Part shown: positions 81-6,274 of the stretch, piece after piece
Numbering within the stretch: the first letter of the stretch is position 1
Layout of the letters: each line of letters begins with the position of its first letter
Virus record (IMG/VR): IMGVR_UViG_3300000405_000981
Coordinates: 1 to 23,906 of that record
Direction: 5' to 3' (one strand)
DNA from: a virus
DNA: 23,906 nucleotides
Notes under the pieces: model-generated
What the model was told of the DNA's origin: nothing
Databases searched by the model: none
Seen by the model: the letters and a program-made list of their open reading frames with translations, nothing else
Translations under genes and position numbers: made by a program

Positions 81-953
81 TTACGGGAATATCCTAGTCA
101 AAATAGCCGAACATCTATTCCTGTAGGTATGGTTCTTCAAGCAATGCTCTTGGCCCTGAGTGGCAATTCTCTTGGAAAGACTTTCTCCCACAGAAAACAT
201 TTTTGGAATATTGCCAACGAGATCGTTTTCGTCTTGAAATGAAATAAAGTGCTCAAGATCATTGCCAATGGTATGCAGGGCCGAATCTTGTACACTGAGG
301 AGCACACTACACGCCGCCATGGTTTCGGTGCATCTCATGGGTAATAAACCACCCCCTCCACCAGCAACATCATTTACAACATAATGAGATCTAGCTATCT
401 CATCAATGTACTGCTCTCTAAACACGCCATGCAAAAAATCTGTTCTTGCTGCCGGACAATATTGTCTAATTAGATTGTAAAGGTGGCGACGTTCTGGTCT
501 ATCAGAACCTATGATTAGAAAGTCACGAACCTTTTCTTGATAAGATCTAAAATGCAACTTCTCGTCGGCGGCGTATGGCAAGTACATTCCATCGTAGATC
601 ATATTGGCGTTGGCCATAAAGTTAACATCAAAGCCAAACATGTTATTGATTGCTCGCCAACGATCAGGATAGAGTGCGGCATCAAAAAACCAGCTAGCTC
701 GCTTACGTGACCGTACATTCATTAGCTCTGTATAGACAGGATCGCCATCGCCGCATTCAAGAAATAAGAATAAGTCCCAGTCTTCTTCTAAGACCTTCCG
801 TGAGCCCTCTAGTCTCTCTTGTGTCTGATAGTAGTTACCATATGGAACAGCTTCGTGCCCAAGTTCTTGAAAAGCACGAACGACGCAATCCCCAGTCGCC
901 CAGCCACGAGACTGAGGAATTCCTCTGTATGAAACTAGAATACGCATTGTCAT
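81..953 (-). CDS. CgeB-like glycosyltransferase (GT-B fold, GT1/GT4-like)
   Basis: The product is 290 residues when started at the ATG at 953-951, which overlaps the stop of the Fe-S carrier gene as ATGA. An in-frame start 21 bases further upstream would run deeper into that gene and is less likely. The N-terminus (MRILVSYRG) looks like the first Rossmann strand of a GT-B enzyme. Around residues 203-220 the pattern GLLPMRCTETMAACSVLL matches the donor-binding C-terminal half of CgeB/spore-maturation-type glycosyltransferases, and the tail TYRNRCSAIL matches their usual ending. The family transfers a sugar from a nucleotide-sugar donor; donor and acceptor cannot be told from sequence. It lies downstream of the main glycosylation island, separated by the Fe-S carrier and the GMP reductase fusion. 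A bases-only reading cannot exclude a non-sugar role. Confidence 0.75.
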   Translation of the reverse strand: MTMRILVSYRGIPQSRGWATGDCVVRAFQELGHEAVPYGNYYQTQERLEGSRKVLEEDWDLFLFLECGDGDPVYTELMNVRSRKRASWFFDAALYPDRWRAINNMFGFDVNFMANANMIYDGMYLPYAADEKLHFRSYQEKVRDFLIIGSDRPERRHLYNLIRQYCPAARTDFLHGVFREQYIDEIARSHYVVNDVAGGGGGLLPMRCTETMAACSVLLSVQDSALHTIGNDLEHFISFQDENDLVGNIPKMFSVGESLSKRIATQGQEHCLKNHTYRNRCSAILTRIFP

Positions 954-1279
954 GCCGAAAACGACTCGCCGCATCCACAGCTTTTAACTGCGTTAGGATT
1001 GATGAACTTAAAACCACGATTCATTAAAGTGTTCTCAAAGTCAACACTCATACCACTAAGATACAAAAAACTCTTTGGATCACAAACAACTGTAATGCCG
1101 CCATGTTCATTAACTTGATCTACTTCATTCACAGTGTCATCGAATTCTAAAATATAGCTAAAGCCTGAACAGCCGCCTCCTCGCACTCCCAAACGAAGGC
1201 ATGTATTTTTTGAAAGATTCTGTTCTAACATAATACGATCTAATTCTTTAATAGCACTCTCTGTTAAAGTTATTGACAT
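950..1279 (-). CDS. A-type iron-sulfur cluster carrier (IscA/ErpA/SufA-like)
   Basis: This 109-residue protein has the full length and all hallmarks of the HesB/IscA family. There is a central LRLGVRGGGCSGFSY segment with the first ligand Cys37, a CDP-x-S-xx-YL-x-G-xx-VDF core around residues 66-81, and the C-terminal SCGCGESFS with Cys101 and Cys103. A-type carriers accept Fe-S clusters from a scaffold and hand them to client proteins; they act in the cytoplasm, usually as dimers. The start ATG at 1279 has an AGAAGGA element about ten bases upstream. The gene stands after a 116-base gap with a late-type promoter box and hairpins, and overlaps the next glycosyltransferase by ATGA. No IscU or cysteine desulfurase is nearby, so it probably plugs into host machinery. 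A-type carrier homologues are known from some marine phages. Confidence 0.93.
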   Translation of the reverse strand: MSITLTESAIKELDRIMLEQNLSKNTCLRLGVRGGGCSGFSYILEFDDTVNEVDQVNEHGGITVVCDPKSFLYLSGMSVDFENTLMNRGFKFINPNAVKSCGCGESFSA

Positions 1280-1383
1280 TTACAGTCTTCCTTCTCCATG
1301 TGCTGAGTTCTCGCGAACTCCGTTTGCTGTGACCTCAATGAACTCGGCGTTACGTTGCAATGCTGCGACGTGTTATTCATCAT
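1270..1383 (-). CDS. possible 37-residue ORF in the Fe-S carrier leader
   Basis: An ATG-ATG start at 1383/1380 opens a 37-codon frame that ends 10 bases inside the Fe-S carrier gene. The peptide is polar, with Cys9 and a C-terminal MEKEDCKCQ. Against it being a gene: the ribosome binding site is poor (AGAAGA close to the ATG), the composition looks random, and two good hairpins lie in the same bases, which suggests a structured untranslated leader. For it: the start/stop overlaps fit the packing of this operon. It could also be a short leader peptide coupled to the carrier gene. Confidence 0.22.
   Translation of the reverse strand: MMNNTSQHCNVTPSSLRSQQTEFARTQHMEKEDCKCQ
1305..1320 (-). promoter_or_regulatory. 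leader hairpin with a GCGA tetraloop
   Basis: On the minus strand GAGTTC-GCGA-GAACTC forms a perfect six-pair stem closed by a GNRA tetraloop, 25 bases before the Fe-S carrier start. It is not followed by a U tract, so it is not a classical terminator. It could stabilise the transcript, limit access to the ribosome binding site or bind a protein. Confidence 0.45.
1353..1372 (-). promoter_or_regulatory. second leader hairpin (one mismatch)
   Basis: The minus strand reads ACGTCGCA-GCAT-TGCAACGT: eight-base arms with one C/A mismatch around a four-base loop, upstream of the GCGA hairpin. Together they make this leader unusually structured for the window. The role is unknown. Confidence 0.35.
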
Positions 1384-1392
1384 AGTCTTCTT

Positions 1393-1400
1393 TATTTATA
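1393..1400 (-). promoter_or_regulatory. T4-late-type promoter box TATAAATA
   Basis: The minus strand reads TATAAATA at 1400-1393, identical to the T4 late promoter -10 consensus. It overlaps the stop codon of the GMP reductase fusion and faces the Fe-S carrier gene, with room for a leader of roughly 105 bases. T4-type late promoters need no -35 element, and the phage encodes its own sigma factor. That this factor reads this box is inference. Confidence 0.45.
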
Positions 1401-3045
1401 CACGAATAAATTTCACATTGGCCTGAAACGACTGAATGTCTTTTCCGCCAGCATATGTAACGCCACTTCGTAATGCTCCCTGATATCGTTCAATTAATTT
1501 TTCAACTGACTCTCCAATATCAAGATATCGAACACTGCCCTCGGGACATGTACCGGCTTTCATACCACGCCATTTGTCCTGTACGTAACGACTGGCCATA
1601 CCGGCATATACTTTTTTAGCCACACCATCAACATGCACAATTTCTGCTGCTGATTCTGGACAACGAGCAAAAATAGACCCGGCCATCACAGCGTTCGCAC
1701 CAGCAGCAATTGCCTTAGTGTAATCAGCGGGTTCTCGAATACCACCATCACTGATCATTGGCATGCCAAAATCACGACATATAGCGGTCATTTTAGCAAT
1801 AGCAGAAAATTGTTTCTCTGTACAACCAGCAGTATTTTTTGTTTCACATGCCAAGCCTTGTGCAATACCTAATTTTATACCATCAACATAATCATTAAAA
1901 TATGGTATAGCTTCTGGACAAACAAAATTGCCAACAATAATTTTTGTTGTTGGACTAAATACTTTGATGGCCTTGGCGGTGTCTAGCACGCCAGAACTAA
2001 AACCATGTGCAATATCAATAACTACTATAGTTGCACCTGCACGAATTATTTGTTTTGCCAATTGCACCTGAACGTCTCCGACGCCAACCGAAACGGCAAT
2101 ATGCTCTAAGTAACTAGCCATGGATTTTGCAGATTGTATAAGTATATCATCGGGTGCGGCACGATGCATAATGCCCATAGCACCATATTTACTAAGTAAA
2201 ATACAAAAATCAGCATTAACAACAGTAGACATGTTTGAGGCGACCAAAGGCACATTAAGCCAAACGCCACGACAAATCTCGCTTTTTGTATCTACATCAA
2301 GTCTAGATTGACATTGATTAAATGACTGTTGAATTGCTATATCTTCAAAACCTAATGAGCGTGGCATCAAATCAGATCGTAATCTATATTGTCCAGGCGA
2401 GCGATCAAAGAAAATAAAACCGCTTTTTACAGCCTGCATAGCTACAGACTCTAACTGTTTATGTAATTTACTATGGTCAACGTCTGACGCACACAAATGT
2501 AAATTATGGGCGAGATTATTTAATTTGTCTCCATCAATATGATGAACTTGTTCAACATTGGTCAATGGGCGTTGCAATACTTGCTCCATCACAACTCTAT
2601 GTTGTCTGTGATATTCTATACCGTCATGCACTAAAACATAACCGTGTTCACCTTGCGATAGCTTCGTGCCACAAAGTCGTGGATTTTTTCCATCTTTAAA
2701 ACGCTTAGACTTACCTCTCATAGCGTTCGAAATTTTTCGACGCACATCTTGACGTTTAGAGGCATTCATGTTACCTGTATTCTTAATTTTCATACTACAT
2801 CCAAAACAAAAATCAAGATATGAAGATTGATTCGATTCATGCCTTGCTAACCATTTGCGACGAGTTTTGTTAATCGTATCAAGTGTAGTCTCAGACTGAC
2901 CGCCGCATACGTCGCATGTTTTAATAACACGTTTTTTACTGCCGTTAGTTAAAGAACTAACGGCAATTCCACATATAGTTTTATCAGATATAGTCATCGA
3001 ATGAATAACCCTTACGGATCGAGGATTACACGCCTTTCTAGCCAT
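1396..3045 (-). CDS. HNH endonuclease fused in frame to IMP dehydrogenase/GMP reductase-family enzyme
   Basis: One uninterrupted 549-codon frame holds two unrelated parts. Residues about 17-225 are a homing-type HNH endonuclease: a zinc-finger-like pair of CxxC (44/47 and 80/83), a NUMOD-like linker (about 92-120), then the HNH core VHHIDGDKLNN with His168/His169, Asn178 and His191. Residues about 227-549 are a CBS-less IMPDH/GMP reductase barrel: LGFEDIAI at the start, VASNMSTV (268-275), IDIAHG (344-349), the catalytic loop with Cys400 (GLACETKNTAG), ISDGGI (431-436), YAGMAS, GALRSG, and an FIRV end as in GuaC. Length (about 323) and ending favour GMP reductase over IMP dehydrogenase, but the family split is not certain. 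Met227 (ATG at 2367-2365) sits exactly at the enzyme boundary and could be a separate start, though I see no strong ribosome binding site. The frame starts with ATGGCTAG overlapping the upstream glycosyltransferase stop. The block looks AT-richer than its neighbours. Confidence 0.85.
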   Translation of the reverse strand: MARKACNPRSVRVIHSMTISDKTICGIAVSSLTNGSKKRVIKTCDVCGGQSETTLDTINKTRRKWLARHESNQSSYLDFCFGCSMKIKNTGNMNASKRQDVRRKISNAMRGKSKRFKDGKNPRLCGTKLSQGEHGYVLVHDGIEYHRQHRVVMEQVLQRPLTNVEQVHHIDGDKLNNLAHNLHLCASDVDHSKLHKQLESVAMQAVKSGFIFFDRSPGQYRLRSDLMPRSLGFEDIAIQQSFNQCQSRLDVDTKSEICRGVWLNVPLVASNMSTVVNADFCILLSKYGAMGIMHRAAPDDILIQSAKSMASYLEHIAVSVGVGDVQVQLAKQIIRAGATIVVIDIAHGFSSGVLDTAKAIKVFSPTTKIIVGNFVCPEAIPYFNDYVDGIKLGIAQGLACETKNTAGCTEKQFSAIAKMTAICRDFGMPMISDGGIREPADYTKAIAAGANAVMAGSIFARCPESAAEIVHVDGVAKKVYAGMASRYVQDKWRGMKAGTCPEGSVRYLDIGESVEKLIERYQGALRSGVTYAGGKDIQSFQANVKFIRV

Positions 3046-3706
3046 GCAAAGCTTTCAGTTGTGCCGGGTCAATATTATCGTTCTCATCATATGTGGCACC
3101 AATAAAATGTCCAGGCGTCATTGGAGTAGGAAATGGAACACCCGGCCAAATATTAGTATGAAAGTCAGCATGATTCAAAGTGTCGTGCTTAACAATAGGC
3201 CAGACAATTTCCTTTAGAAAATCTTGATCAATCTGCCATCGAGATTCACGAGCCTGAGCCCATTCAATAGCGTGTCGAGACAACTCAGAAAACAGTCCTT
3301 TTTTAATGCCAAACATTCCACCAAGTATCGGCACCGAATGATGAAAGTGACAGTGCATAGTATGAAATGATTTATCACTAGCCAACCACTCGTTAACTGC
3401 AAGCTTTTCTCGCAAAGAAAGACGAGAGTCGCAATCACGACTCATCATGACTTCTACATCATTTTCACCAATAGGGCTAAAGCGATACAACATCATACGC
3501 CAATCACCCGGCTCATCCACGCAAACAACCTCAACATTATCTCTAGGGATAAGCAATTGCTTAATAGTGTCGCTCGGTACTGACTGACCAACATAAAAAC
3601 GACAGGTCCAGTCTGGAAATAGTGTACGTGCGAGTTCAATATTTTTCATTGCACCAACAAGATATTTTGGATTATTCCCCCAAAGACAGAATGATATGAC
3701 TTTCAT
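3038..3706 (-). CDS. GT-A-type glycosyltransferase with DxD motif
   Basis: The 222-residue protein starts with MKVISFCLWG and carries the block RDCDSRLSLREKLAVNEWL around residues 90-108. In it Asp91 and Asp93 form the metal-binding DxD of GT-A enzymes. The same RDxDSR...RE...EWL signature occurs in small capsular and viral glycosyltransferases. It would transfer a sugar from a nucleotide-sugar donor in the host cytoplasm. The start ATG at 3706 overlaps the previous stop as ATGA, and its own stop lies within the start of the HNH-GMP reductase frame. The acceptor is unknown. It closes the glycosylation island on its downstream side. Confidence 0.75.
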   Translation of the reverse strand: MKVISFCLWGNNPKYLVGAMKNIELARTLFPDWTCRFYVGQSVPSDTIKQLLIPRDNVEVVCVDEPGDWRMMLYRFSPIGENDVEVMMSRDCDSRLSLREKLAVNEWLASDKSFHTMHCHFHHSVPILGGMFGIKKGLFSELSRHAIEWAQARESRWQIDQDFLKEIVWPIVKHDTLNHADFHTNIWPGVPFPTPMTPGHFIGATYDENDNIDPAQLKALHG

Positions 3707-3948
3707 TTGTAATACTCTTTTTCAAGTATATTCCAAACCGTCATAGGAATCTCGTCGCGTGCTATAGTGTCTAAATCATTTGCCAAGTCGAATGCCTTAC
3801 ATAATTGACCATTACGAATAGCTTCAATGATTTTCTTGTAATCAAATATATCACCTATTGGAGTATGGCCGCCAAACTTACCTCTTCCTGTTTTTAAAGC
3901 TAAGTTGAGTTTTTTATCCCAGCCATCTATAATTTTGATAATATTCAT
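3703..3948 (-). CDS. hypothetical small protein in the glycosylation island
   Basis: An 81-residue protein of unknown function. I chose the ATG at 3948 because it overlaps the upstream stop as ATGA; another in-frame ATG at 3966 exists. It is mostly helical in appearance, with a basic N-terminal half (WDKKLNLALKTGRGKFGG) and an acidic C-terminal half (LANDLDTIARDEIP). There is no signal peptide, membrane segment or cysteine pattern. Its stop overlaps the next glycosyltransferase by ATGA, which supports real translation. No function can be named. Confidence 0.65.
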   Translation of the reverse strand: MNIIKIIDGWDKKLNLALKTGRGKFGGHTPIGDIFDYKKIIEAIRNGQLCKAFDLANDLDTIARDEIPMTVWNILEKEYYK

Positions 3949-5099
3949 TTGTTTGCCAATGTCCAATCGTAGATTTGCATCAACTGTCCTGTCACGGTAC
4001 TTGCTTCAAAGTGTCGCATAGCACGACGACGGGCTTCGCGACCGAAGTGCTGTCGTAGACGAATAGTAGACTTCTCGTCTTCCGTCGCGAGTTCAGGATT
4101 GGCAATAAGCTGCATTAGTACGTCACGATAAGCTTCGTGATTGCCAACAGGAACAACAAAGCCACTTTCAGCAAGGATCTCAGACTGACCGTTATAGATC
4201 ATGCTCTCGTGTGACACCACCGGCAGACCATGCATCATGGCTTCCTGGATGTTGCACGGACAGCACTCTCCATCATGACGAGCGTGAGCGTAAATGTCAA
4301 GTCCCATATAGAATTTTGACAGTTCATCGTCTTTGACGATAGGGCTTGAAAAGCAAACGTTCTTAATGCCTAGCTGACGCACCGTATCGTGCCAACCCTG
4401 ACAAGGATTTACAACAATGTAGTAGGCGTTCGAATAGACATCTTCAATAGCCTTAAACGCTCTTAGAGAGATAGGATCAAAGTTGTCTGCTCGACCTACA
4501 CGTCCAAGTATAACTGCATTATGAGGTAGCTTGAAAGTTGAAAGAAGATGTTCGCGACATACTTCCTTGTTCTCTGTCGTAACGTCGAGTACCGGCACTT
4601 CAATCGGGTTGTATAATACCGGACCATCAACGCTACCGGCACGTAAGGCGGTGCTGCGAATGTACTGGGAGATATAGACGTTAACGTCGATCTGCGGCTC
4701 AGGTGCGTTATCTTTAAAACCGAAGATGTTAGTCTCTATCCACTTAGCCTTGGGTGCCATGTAGCGAAAGGCGGGCCATTCTGTGTAGCCGCTGCGATGG
4801 ACGTGCATAATCTGTGGGTCGATCTGCTTTAAAACGTCGTAGAGGTTGTCCGACTCTGGCAGGTAGGGGGCTTGCCGCCCCTTCTTTCCAGGGGTCCATT
4901 GGTACGGAATTACGTGGTCATCGCCAAGCCACGACTTCACGATCTCTAAACGATTGTTCGCCAGATCACCTTCGCGATAGACGATAAACGGCTCGTACTT
5001 GTCGCTTTTAGCGAGGTACTTGCAAAACAATTGGGCTGTACGGTCGGTCCCGCTAAAGCCTACTGTCTTACTGTGATGACAAACGCGAATTTTAGACAT
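3945..5099 (-). CDS. GT4-family glycosyltransferase, paralog A
   Basis: A 384-residue GT-B enzyme. The N-terminal domain begins with RVCHHSKTVGFSGTDRTAQLF, and residues 99-105 carry HVHRSGY. The C-terminal domain has the donor-binding ARHDGECCPCNIQEAMMHG stretch with Glu278 and Glu286 in EX7E spacing, followed by LPVVSH. It is clearly paralogous to the product encoded just upstream: both share HVxRSGYxExP, IETNxFGF, xNPxExP and GRxGRxDN at matching positions. It should act in the cytoplasm as a retaining transferase. The start ATG at 5099 follows AAGGAC, with a further AAGAGA upstream. Donor and acceptor are unknown. Confidence 0.88.
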   Translation of the reverse strand: MSKIRVCHHSKTVGFSGTDRTAQLFCKYLAKSDKYEPFIVYREGDLANNRLEIVKSWLGDDHVIPYQWTPGKKGRQAPYLPESDNLYDVLKQIDPQIMHVHRSGYTEWPAFRYMAPKAKWIETNIFGFKDNAPEPQIDVNVYISQYIRSTALRAGSVDGPVLYNPIEVPVLDVTTENKEVCREHLLSTFKLPHNAVILGRVGRADNFDPISLRAFKAIEDVYSNAYYIVVNPCQGWHDTVRQLGIKNVCFSSPIVKDDELSKFYMGLDIYAHARHDGECCPCNIQEAMMHGLPVVSHESMIYNGQSEILAESGFVVPVGNHEAYRDVLMQLIANPELATEDEKSTIRLRQHFGREARRRAMRHFEASTVTGQLMQIYDWTLANK

Positions 5100-5193: not shown

Positions 5194-6274
5194 TGACAAT
5201 CGCCCTATAGATATTTTCAAGCTTATGCATACATACACTAACTTCATACTCCGCTTCTGCCTTGCGTCTACCAAATTCTCCCATAGTGCGACGCATAGAT
5301 TCATCGTCAATCAAGGTTTTTAAGGCTTCCGCATATTCACTCGGTGTGTTGTTGACAACGAATCCAGTCTTGCCAGTATCCACAAGCTCCGTCTGTGACT
5401 GGAATACACCCATGTCTGGCACGCTTGGGGTAGCGATATGCGTAATCACTGGCTTGCCATGAATCATGGCCTCGGCAATGTTCACGCCGAAAGTTTCGCC
5501 GTCCGCTCTAGCATGCGTATAAACGTCTACGCTATTATAGAACGTACTGAGAATTAATTGACTGGTGGTTGGTTCAATGACATAAAAAGGAATGTCGTAA
5601 CGTGCAAGATCATCAATCATGTTCGATGGCGGTGCCACAACTAAGAAGCGTATGTCGTATCCCTGCATGCGTAACAATCGAACCGCATCGACACTCACGG
5701 AATTGTAGATACCATTGTCTGGACGACCGCAACGCCCTACTACAATAGCACCTTCAGCTTTCCAGCGTTGCGAGACACCTAGCTCAGCGTTAGTGCATGG
5801 CATTTCCACAGGATTGTTCACAAAATCAAAACGATCAGGCTGAACGCCCATCTGCTTGATAGTGTTCTTCATGAGCCACTTACTCATAAACAATGAACTG
5901 TCAATACGAATATTGCTGTCATAAAAACCAAAGACATTCGTCTCGATAAAGTGCGGCACGTCAATATGGTATCCGGGTACAGGAAATTCCTGATAGCCAC
6001 TGCGATAGACATGCAAGATGTCGGGTTTAAAATCGTCAATGACGCTTTGTAACCCAGTACCGTCTGTGTGCTTCTGAGTGTCTACTTCAAAAAGCTTGCC
6101 TCGACACATCTTGGCGGCATGCTCAAATTCGGCCTTGCGAGGATGCGTACCATTAACATCGTAAACAATCGCCACTTCAAACTCGCTAACGTCAGCGTGC
6201 TCGAAAAAGAGTTGGCATGTTTTTTCGGTACCACCTAACCCAAGGTGACGCAGATAGTGAAGAACTTTGATCAT
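5186..6274 (-). CDS. GT4-family glycosyltransferase, paralog B
   Basis: A 362-residue GT-B enzyme. It opens with IKVLHYLRHLGLGGTEKTCQ, the usual glycine-rich GT4 N-terminal loop, has HVYRSGY at residues 88-94 and GRCGRPDN near 180. The donor site is ARADGETFGVNIAEAMIHG, with Glu260 and Glu268 in EX7E spacing followed by KPVITH. Sequence and spacing match the downstream paralog at 5099-3945 closely enough to suggest a tandem duplication. The start overlaps the upstream stop as ATGA. A second copy suggests two successive sugar additions with related donors, but that is inference. Confidence 0.9.
   Translation of the reverse strand: MIKVLHYLRHLGLGGTEKTCQLFFEHADVSEFEVAIVYDVNGTHPRKAEFEHAAKMCRGKLFEVDTQKHTDGTGLQSVIDDFKPDILHVYRSGYQEFPVPGYHIDVPHFIETNVFGFYDSNIRIDSSLFMSKWLMKNTIKQMGVQPDRFDFVNNPVEMPCTNAELGVSQRWKAEGAIVVGRCGRPDNGIYNSVSVDAVRLLRMQGYDIRFLVVAPPSNMIDDLARYDIPFYVIEPTTSQLILSTFYNSVDVYTHARADGETFGVNIAEAMIHGKPVITHIATPSVPDMGVFQSQTELVDTGKTGFVVNNTPSEYAEALKTLIDDESMRRTMGEFGRRKAEAEYEVSVCMHKLENIYRAIVNG

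Follow-up and report, generated by a model that had tools for sequence, protein, structure and literature searches.

A recurrent in-frame fusion of an HNH endonuclease to an IMPDH/GMP reductase-like enzyme in phage loci, most likely a homing endonuclease at the N-terminus of a metabolic enzyme

Results

Gene content and features of the locus

The window is the whole stretch of viral DNA that was analysed, 23,906 nucleotides of IMG/VR virus record IMGVR_UViG_3300000405_000981. On its minus strand, a single frame of 549 codons (1396-3045) contained no internal stop and led from an HNH nuclease part into a complete barrel. The features of the region were as follows, in the direction of transcription.

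3038..3706, minus strand: upstream gene, with an 8-nt overlap between its stop and Met1 of the fusion
1396..3045, minus strand: HNH endonuclease-IMPDH/GMP reductase fusion ORF (Pfam and PHROG matches; same join in L042/L002)
2993..3013, minus strand: KGYSFDD codons in another frame, a possible 5'-end remnant of an earlier unfused enzyme gene (suggestive)
2995..2997, minus strand: Met17, the preferred putative start of the fusion over Met1, with TAAGG 12 nt upstream
2938..2967, minus strand: 13-bp inverted repeat (one G-U) with a 4-nt loop, inside the first HNH codons
2797..2916, minus strand: zinc finger C44-x2-C47 ... C80-x2-C83, in all 8 aligned full-length fusions
2461..2601, minus strand: HNH motif H168 H169 ... 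N177/N181 ... H191, H195 (residues 149-195)
2380..2454, minus strand: C-terminal HNH module LE..A..xVxxGxIxFDxxxxxYxL (residues 198-222; from the alignment)
2356..2379, minus strand: junction or linker, residues 223-230, including Met227 (2365-2367) without a Shine-Dalgarno sequence
1399..2361, minus strand: complete IMPDH/GMP reductase barrel, residues 229-549, with Cys400 and Thr402
950..1279, minus strand: IscA/HesB-like gene (Pfam Fe-S_biosyn), downstream of the fusion

Pfam analysis of the whole fusion ORF assigned residues 231-549 to IMPDH (5.1e-62), and PHROG 9582 (dehydrogenase) covered residues 230-549 (3.8e-68). The N-terminal part was matched by PHROG 19902 (HNH endonuclease) over residues 77-225 (3.2e-20) and by Pfam HNH_3 over residues 149-185, the latter at 21.2 bits with the whole ORF and 22.6 bits with the N-terminal part, which just missed the curated cut-off of 24.8. 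The C-terminal HNH module was common to free-standing and intron-encoded cousins. An earlier note on this DNA had described the fused ORF, its coordinates, Cys400 and the FIRV end, and all of these were recovered. The NUMOD domain that it also named found no counterpart among the Pfam matches at E<=1, and its barrel, placed at Met227, proved complete with homology setting in at about residue 229-231.

The active-site Cys-x-Thr loop was present, with C400 and T402 invariant across 7 aligned subfamily rows, and together with the barrel it places the protein in the IMPDH/GMP reductase superfamily. The best NCBIfam models scored 157 bits for GMP reductase (barrel alone 159, equivalog cut-off 344) and 173 bits for IMPDH (barrel alone 176, equivalog cut-off 481.5), and neither cut-off was reached. 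The upstream gene gave no Pfam match (E<=1) and no PHROG match (E<=0.1).

The hairpin at 2938-2967 had a z-score of -2.19 in a 131-nt fold, with 5 of 200 shuffles folding as well, and was deleted in two related contigs (L003 and L004). A terminator early in the coding region is reported for T4 mobE in excerpts of PMC2988022. Elsewhere in the window, a glycosyltransferase-like gene (3945-5099) lay within a run of such genes; against named phages it gave weak matches of 28-29%, to 4 Prochlorococcus phage records and 1 marine virus record.

Distribution of the fusion in the enzyme subfamily

IMG/VR was searched by a DNA pattern scan followed by an enzyme profile scan. Eight phage enzymes that had diverged strongly gave a profile too variable for searching, and the pattern scan and a closer alignment were used in its place. 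The best 80 loci were kept per scan, from 147, 83 and at least 404 confirmed, and conserved motifs were required, so that sampling is incomplete. In the profile scan (best 80 of 147) the enzyme subfamily comprised 18 loci at 46-100% identity, the next locus being at 33%. The N-termini of the 18 loci were distributed as follows.

8 of 18, full HNH fused in frame (stop-to-stop frames): L042 (window type), L046, L047, L051, L052, L055, L056, L059
2 of 18, truncated HNH: L043, L044
1 of 18, different nuclease family (PHROG 8790 and 3377) plus a helix-turn-helix-like stretch: L048
1 of 18, helix-turn-helix-like leftover only, by our reading and with no family match: L050
2 of 18, short extensions of 34-37 aa: L054, L045
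4 of 18, no nuclease: L049 (contig edge, 132 nt upstream only), L053, L057, L058

The homologues with the same N-terminal fusion for which the earlier note had called thus exist in 8 of the 18 loci, and in the seven besides L042 the enzyme was 52-57% identical. In the enzyme tree L050 was the sister of L048 (support 98/97). The second nuclease family of L048 (PHROG 8790/3377), at its positions 5530-6000, stands in frame with the same enzyme subfamily. ORFs clustering with the fusion proteins also occur elsewhere in these phages, for example at L047 9752-10393, where a similar motif was seen.

An ATG-led N-terminal extension of at least 100 aa was found in 11/18 subfamily loci against 0/140 other family loci (61 viral, 79 cellular), or in 9/16 against 0/140 when the lineage of the window was counted once (p 1e-12 and 1e-10, kinship ignored). 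None of these 140 loci had an ATG-led extension above 52 codons. Counted back from the enzyme as far as the first ATG in the open frame, the preceding codons numbered at most 26 in all 61 other viral loci, of which L082 and L101 had less than 140 nt upstream, too little to show a long extension, and at most 52 in 79 of the 80 cellular loci; the remaining one, L197, was left out since its match begins within the enzyme. The fusion has the same barrel and active-site Cys as the phage PHROG 9582 enzymes, and differs from the other 61 viral loci compared, which carry no ATG-led extension above 26 codons.

The earlier note had also named, as a refutation, related phages with the two genes separate at this place. 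Across 159 loci (L042-L200) searched with 44 HNH queries, no HNH of this family lay directly before an unfused enzyme (132 nt being all that lies upstream in L049), and relatives were fused, truncated or unfused. An HNH of this family lay about 1.8 kb from the enzyme in L069, and fused L051 carried a further HNH gene on the opposite strand, some 0.8 kb upstream. Among named phages no member of the subfamily was found: 50 of 50,697 records matched the enzyme, all at 36.4% identity or less, and none of the 16 named-phage records matching the HNH was among these 50.

The short N-termini of L054 and L045 looked convincing by eye as remnants of the C-terminal HNH module, though they scored 2.0 and 0.6 bits with a broad profile. 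With a module profile from the eight fusions and their linkers they scored 3.1 and 4.4 bits, with 5 and 34 of 2000 shuffles and 6 and 2 of 356 other ORF starts scoring as good, so that the likeness is suggestive only. The short extension of L058 showed no likeness to the module.

A second contig, L002 (IMGVR_UViG_3300020192_000279), carried the fusion with 99.1% identity to the window over the 5111 nt around it, and in two more contigs, L003 and L004, the frame was unbroken across the HNH-enzyme junction. Because L002 has the same fusion and L003 and L004 keep the frame, the join is not an assembly error, and the hidden stop that the earlier note had named as a refutation is contradicted. A recent accident, in which a free-standing homing gene lost its stop codon or the join arose in assembly, has nothing in its favour beyond the oddity of the join; given the second contig and the seven diverged relatives, it is scarcely credible.

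Translation start sites

Translation of the fusion may start at Met1, which overlaps the upstream stop, or at Met17, with the Shine-Dalgarno-like TAAGG 12 nt away; the ATG corresponding to Met17 was the first start of the open frame in L043. Strong Shine-Dalgarno sequences preceded the HNH start in fused L051 and L056 (TAAGGAG and GGAGGT), and no clear one was seen at the HNH start of fused L046, L047, L052, L055 and L059, in which the start ATG is our choice. The unfused L049, L053 and L057 had a Shine-Dalgarno sequence and an ATG 3-4 codons ahead of the barrel, and unfused L058 had ATGs 21 and 33 codons ahead of the enzyme.

The last 40 codons before the barrel bear on the proposal that one frame makes two products, the enzyme being made also or mainly from an internal start at Met227 with the HNH form as a read-through partner. 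The window/L042, L047, L052 and L059 did have an ATG, 2 to 5 codons short of the barrel, but in each case without a Shine-Dalgarno sequence. In fused L051 and L055 the last 40 codons held no ATG, GTG or TTG, in L056 the only ATG was at -39, and in L046 there were only GTG/TTG codons from -18 upward. Four of the eight fusions therefore lack a nearby ATG (none within 38 codons of the enzyme), and the fusion product is the simplest source of enzyme in at least those four. The internal start that the earlier note had suggested is thus possible for the window (ATG at 2367) and fails as a general explanation; overall we regard it as improbable.

Search for introns and inteins

No Rfam model reached its gathering score in the whole window or in the 18 subfamily loci. 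At E<=10, positions 1300-3800 of the window gave three chance-level matches (a plastid group II model, U4atac and a snoRNA) and none to group I; the plastid group II match lay inside the enzyme at E 5.1 and 17.5 bits, the gathering score of that model being 140. The same search detected group I introns around the cousin HNHs of Vibrio phage pVa5 and Alteromonas phage AD45-P1 (99.2 and 105.7 bits), which served as controls, so a group I or II intron in the fusion is without Rfam support. At the third named-phage cousin locus, Schatzie (L005), no intron match was obtained at E<=1; its cousin HNH lies within a methylase annotated with undetermined intron boundaries. In AD45 (L007 2401-4666), an HNH gene, the core of a group I intron and a GIY-YIG gene together interrupt thyX.

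The HNHs in the thymidylate synthase-gene introns of pVa5 and AD45 are homologous to that of the fusion and have the same C-terminal module; they differ in lying in Rfam-detected RNA introns, none of which was detected at the fusion. In both phages the intron core starts at the end of the C-terminal module, with an overlap of some tens of nucleotides, and in the window this position is occupied by the barrel. A remnant or cryptic group I intron, whose ribozyme core was lost or escaped detection and from which the real enzyme would be spliced, could draw on these intron-encoded cousins and on the enzyme-like 5' end that precedes the HNH in L003 and L004. Against it, besides the Rfam result, the HNH homology abuts the barrel, too closely for a core of about 240 nt to fit between them, and the frame is kept in 8/8 fusions, which makes such an intron very improbable. 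An intein was likewise rejected, as Pfam reported no intein family for the entire ORF (E<=1) and the barrel is complete and unsplit. The earlier dismissal of both a group I intron and an intein therefore stands.

Another phage IMPDH-type gene, at L034 8541-10869 and also in L026, L031 and L033, is broken at its active-site Cys by intein-like ends that enclose a separate endonuclease-like ORF, as read in L034. This arrangement resembles that of the split 'IMPDH-1' intein.

Conservation of both halves and predicted structure

The residues HH...N...H and the two zinc-binding pairs were present in 8/8 aligned fusions (the window standing for L042). HNH_3 scored above the cut-off in 7/7 fused relatives scanned, in contrast to the window. 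Between L047 and L059 the HNH with linker gave pN 0.165 and pS 0.79 (saturated), and the enzyme pN 0.118 and pS 0.672. These values point to purifying selection on both halves in this one pair, at saturated synonymous sites. From the conserved residues we infer that both halves may be functional. The recurrence of the join in diverged relatives and the selection in this pair support the real two-domain protein that the earlier note had offered as one option, as do the four fusions without a nearby ATG.

AF2, run with a 38-row alignment, predicted that both halves fold (mean pLDDT 86.7, pTM 0.63), a result that applies to each half and not to their relative placing. The pLDDT was 85-95 over the HNH core and C-terminal module (141-220) and mostly above 90 in the barrel, with 71 in the linker block 221-230 against 91 and 96 in the adjoining blocks; it was 46-72 over residues 61-130 and below 50 over residues 1-20. 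The 50 PDB matches listed by Foldseek were IMPDH barrels, and among the 50 matches listed against BFVD none extended over the greater part of the query, the highest query TM being 0.55.

Decayed forms and a possible displaced 5' end

L003 and L004 had lost about 335-345 nt of the HNH part, comprising the zinc finger and what follows it, and the HH pair was reduced to a single histidine (HHID to HYID). Between the window and L043, which is on the same contig as L003, differences amounted to 8/282 nt in the HNH remnant and 4/969 nt in the enzyme (Fisher p 0.0013). Non-synonymous differences were 5/225 sites in the remnant against 2/749 in the enzyme (p 0.009). By our reading the remnant is probably decaying beside a constrained enzyme; local recombination is also possible, because synonymous differences were denser in the remnant as well (3/57 sites against 2/220).

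Directly before the HNH, L003 carries AAGGAAGG and, in another frame, an ATG that opens the codons MIRKGYSFDD. In L004, from which another 10 nt are lost, MIRKGYSFDE reads straight into the HNH remnant. These codons resemble the first ones of unfused relatives, MILPRKLSFDN (L053) and MFYQSYGFSD (L057). In the window the KGYSFDD codons remain and the ATG and Shine-Dalgarno sequence are lost, whereas the stretch in L003 and L004 is still preceded by both. KGYSFDD scored 10.2 bits with a 7-column profile, a score equalled in the same sequences by 11 unrelated 7-mers (10 distinct) of 321,782. We estimate a chance of about 0.004 over roughly 110 possible upstream places, for a likeness noticed after the fact. 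No upstream remnant of an enzyme start scored 8 bits or more in the other seven fusions. A search for an unfused close relative starting GY(S/T)FDD gave a single match, L281, which was off target. The earlier statement that no upstream enzyme exon is missing is therefore right in rejecting an intron and has to be qualified by the Shine-Dalgarno sequence, ATG and enzyme-start-like codons that L003 and L004 keep before the HNH.

The same locus with and without the nuclease

Flanking genes were common to the fused L047, L055 and L059 and the unfused L053 and L057, with families F1, F2 and F3 in 5/5 of these loci and F5 and F6 in 4/5; the presence of the nuclease therefore varies at one locus. In a 44-row tree the fused HNHs grouped with modest support (75/96), and 0/500 label shuffles were as clustered. 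A single clade of fused HNHs was not rejected (p-AU 0.243), and in the best tree the free HNHs L232 and L242 fell weakly inside the fused group. Gains and losses are not separable because the enzyme tree is star-like; our preferred view is one old fusion with several losses, and the HNH tree is weakly compatible with such a single origin, repeated gain being the less favoured alternative.

A domesticated fusion, in which the HNH/zinc-finger half serves the phage by bringing the enzyme to DNA or attacking competing phages or host DNA and does not spread by homing, would agree with the recurrence of the join over large divergence, the grouping of the fused HNHs and the purifying selection in one pair. 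The life cycle of a homing element better accounts for the patchy presence of the nuclease in syntenic relatives, for the decay to a truncated HNH in L003 and L004, with differences concentrated in it, and for the nuclease of an unrelated kind that L048 has in this position. We consider it unlikely, though not negligible.

HNH cousins at iscA

Cousin HNHs lay directly 3' of iscA in 9/80 listed loci (L208-L210, L214, L218, L227, L233, L255, L261), of which L208 and L209 look like near-copies and L218 has a short HNH. L214 has an intact iscA, and the frame of the HNH behind it terminates in a repeat of the iscA end (KCGCGESFAV). No displaced iscA tail was found within 400 nt behind the other eight. 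The KGYSFDD trace and the iscA tail copy of L214 suggest that such elements may carry a replacement gene end.

Comparison with known systems

The closest published phage case found was the ShiLan domain, which excerpts of PMC11855218 describe as an HNH concealed within an in-frame insertion in the DNA methylase of a mycobacteriophage. Going by those excerpts, both cases have an HNH element inside a phage gene, no stop codons, no detectable intron or intein, and homing that is inferred. The ShiLan HNH is in a different frame and internal to the methylase, whereas in the window HNH and enzyme share one frame and the HNH is N-terminal and begins the protein.

Fungal mobile ORFs with a replacement gene end are described in the consulted part of PMC3630166 for Glomus atp6, atp9, cox2 and nad3 and for Allomyces atp6. 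In these, the endonuclease lies at the gene end and the new end displaces the old, sometimes in phase with the host gene. The Glomus cases concern LAGLIDADG or GIY-YIG nucleases at C-terminal ends in mitochondria, as far as that part of PMC3630166 goes; the phage fusion differs in having an HNH at the 5' end that recurs over large divergence, and 5'-end replacement is only suggested. The KGYSFDD and iscA traces would fit elements that insert at a gene end with a replacement end, as in these fungal mitochondrial ORFs.

The locus also resembles T4-type mobE as presented in the excerpts of PMC2988022, a promoter-less HNH gene beside a nucleotide-metabolism gene with its start overlapping the upstream stop, but mobE is there a separate gene, unfused to its neighbour. 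No fusion of an IMPDH/GMP reductase to a homing endonuclease was found in the open-licence full-text literature, as judged from search listings.

Discussion

The nuclease-enzyme fusion is real and recurrent, and most likely represents a homing endonuclease that has become the N-terminus of a metabolic enzyme. We give a probability of about 0.6 to one two-domain protein derived from a homing endonuclease gene living in frame at the 5' end of an IMPDH/GMP reductase-like gene. Translation would start at the HNH start codon and give a zinc finger, the HNH, a short linker and a complete TIM barrel. The barrel would tolerate the N-terminal attachment, and the phage would therefore keep the enzyme activity. 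The nuclease domain would cut gene copies lacking it and be copied in by recombination. Since the enzyme would depend on the start signals of the nuclease, loss of the nuclease would require a deletion that keeps both frame and start, and L003 and L004 show such a deletion. That unfused alleles are cut, that the gene homes and that the fused enzyme is active is putative, as is any reaction assigned to it, and the long persistence of an intact nuclease could instead reflect a function useful to the phage.

A wider and more tentative idea, to which we give rather less than even odds, is that these HNH genes are phage 'home-and-rescue' elements. They would cut the conserved end of a metabolic gene (5' in the guaC-like gene, 3' in iscA) and carry its replacement; in the guaC-like case the rescue would have become a permanent N-terminal fusion, one protein being both selfish nuclease and enzyme.

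A homing endonuclease that resides within a gene ordinarily relies on an intron or intein, by which the host protein is left unharmed. The join, recurring in diverged relatives among these uncultured phages, looks like a means for a selfish gene to reside in a useful one with no need of such splicing. If conserved, the fusion would be an alternative to both, with the nuclease simply borne at one end of the host protein. It would also offer a natural model for drives in which a needed gene is both cut and rescued by the same element. Nucleases can moreover go unnoticed behind 'guaC/IMPDH' annotations in phage metagenomes.
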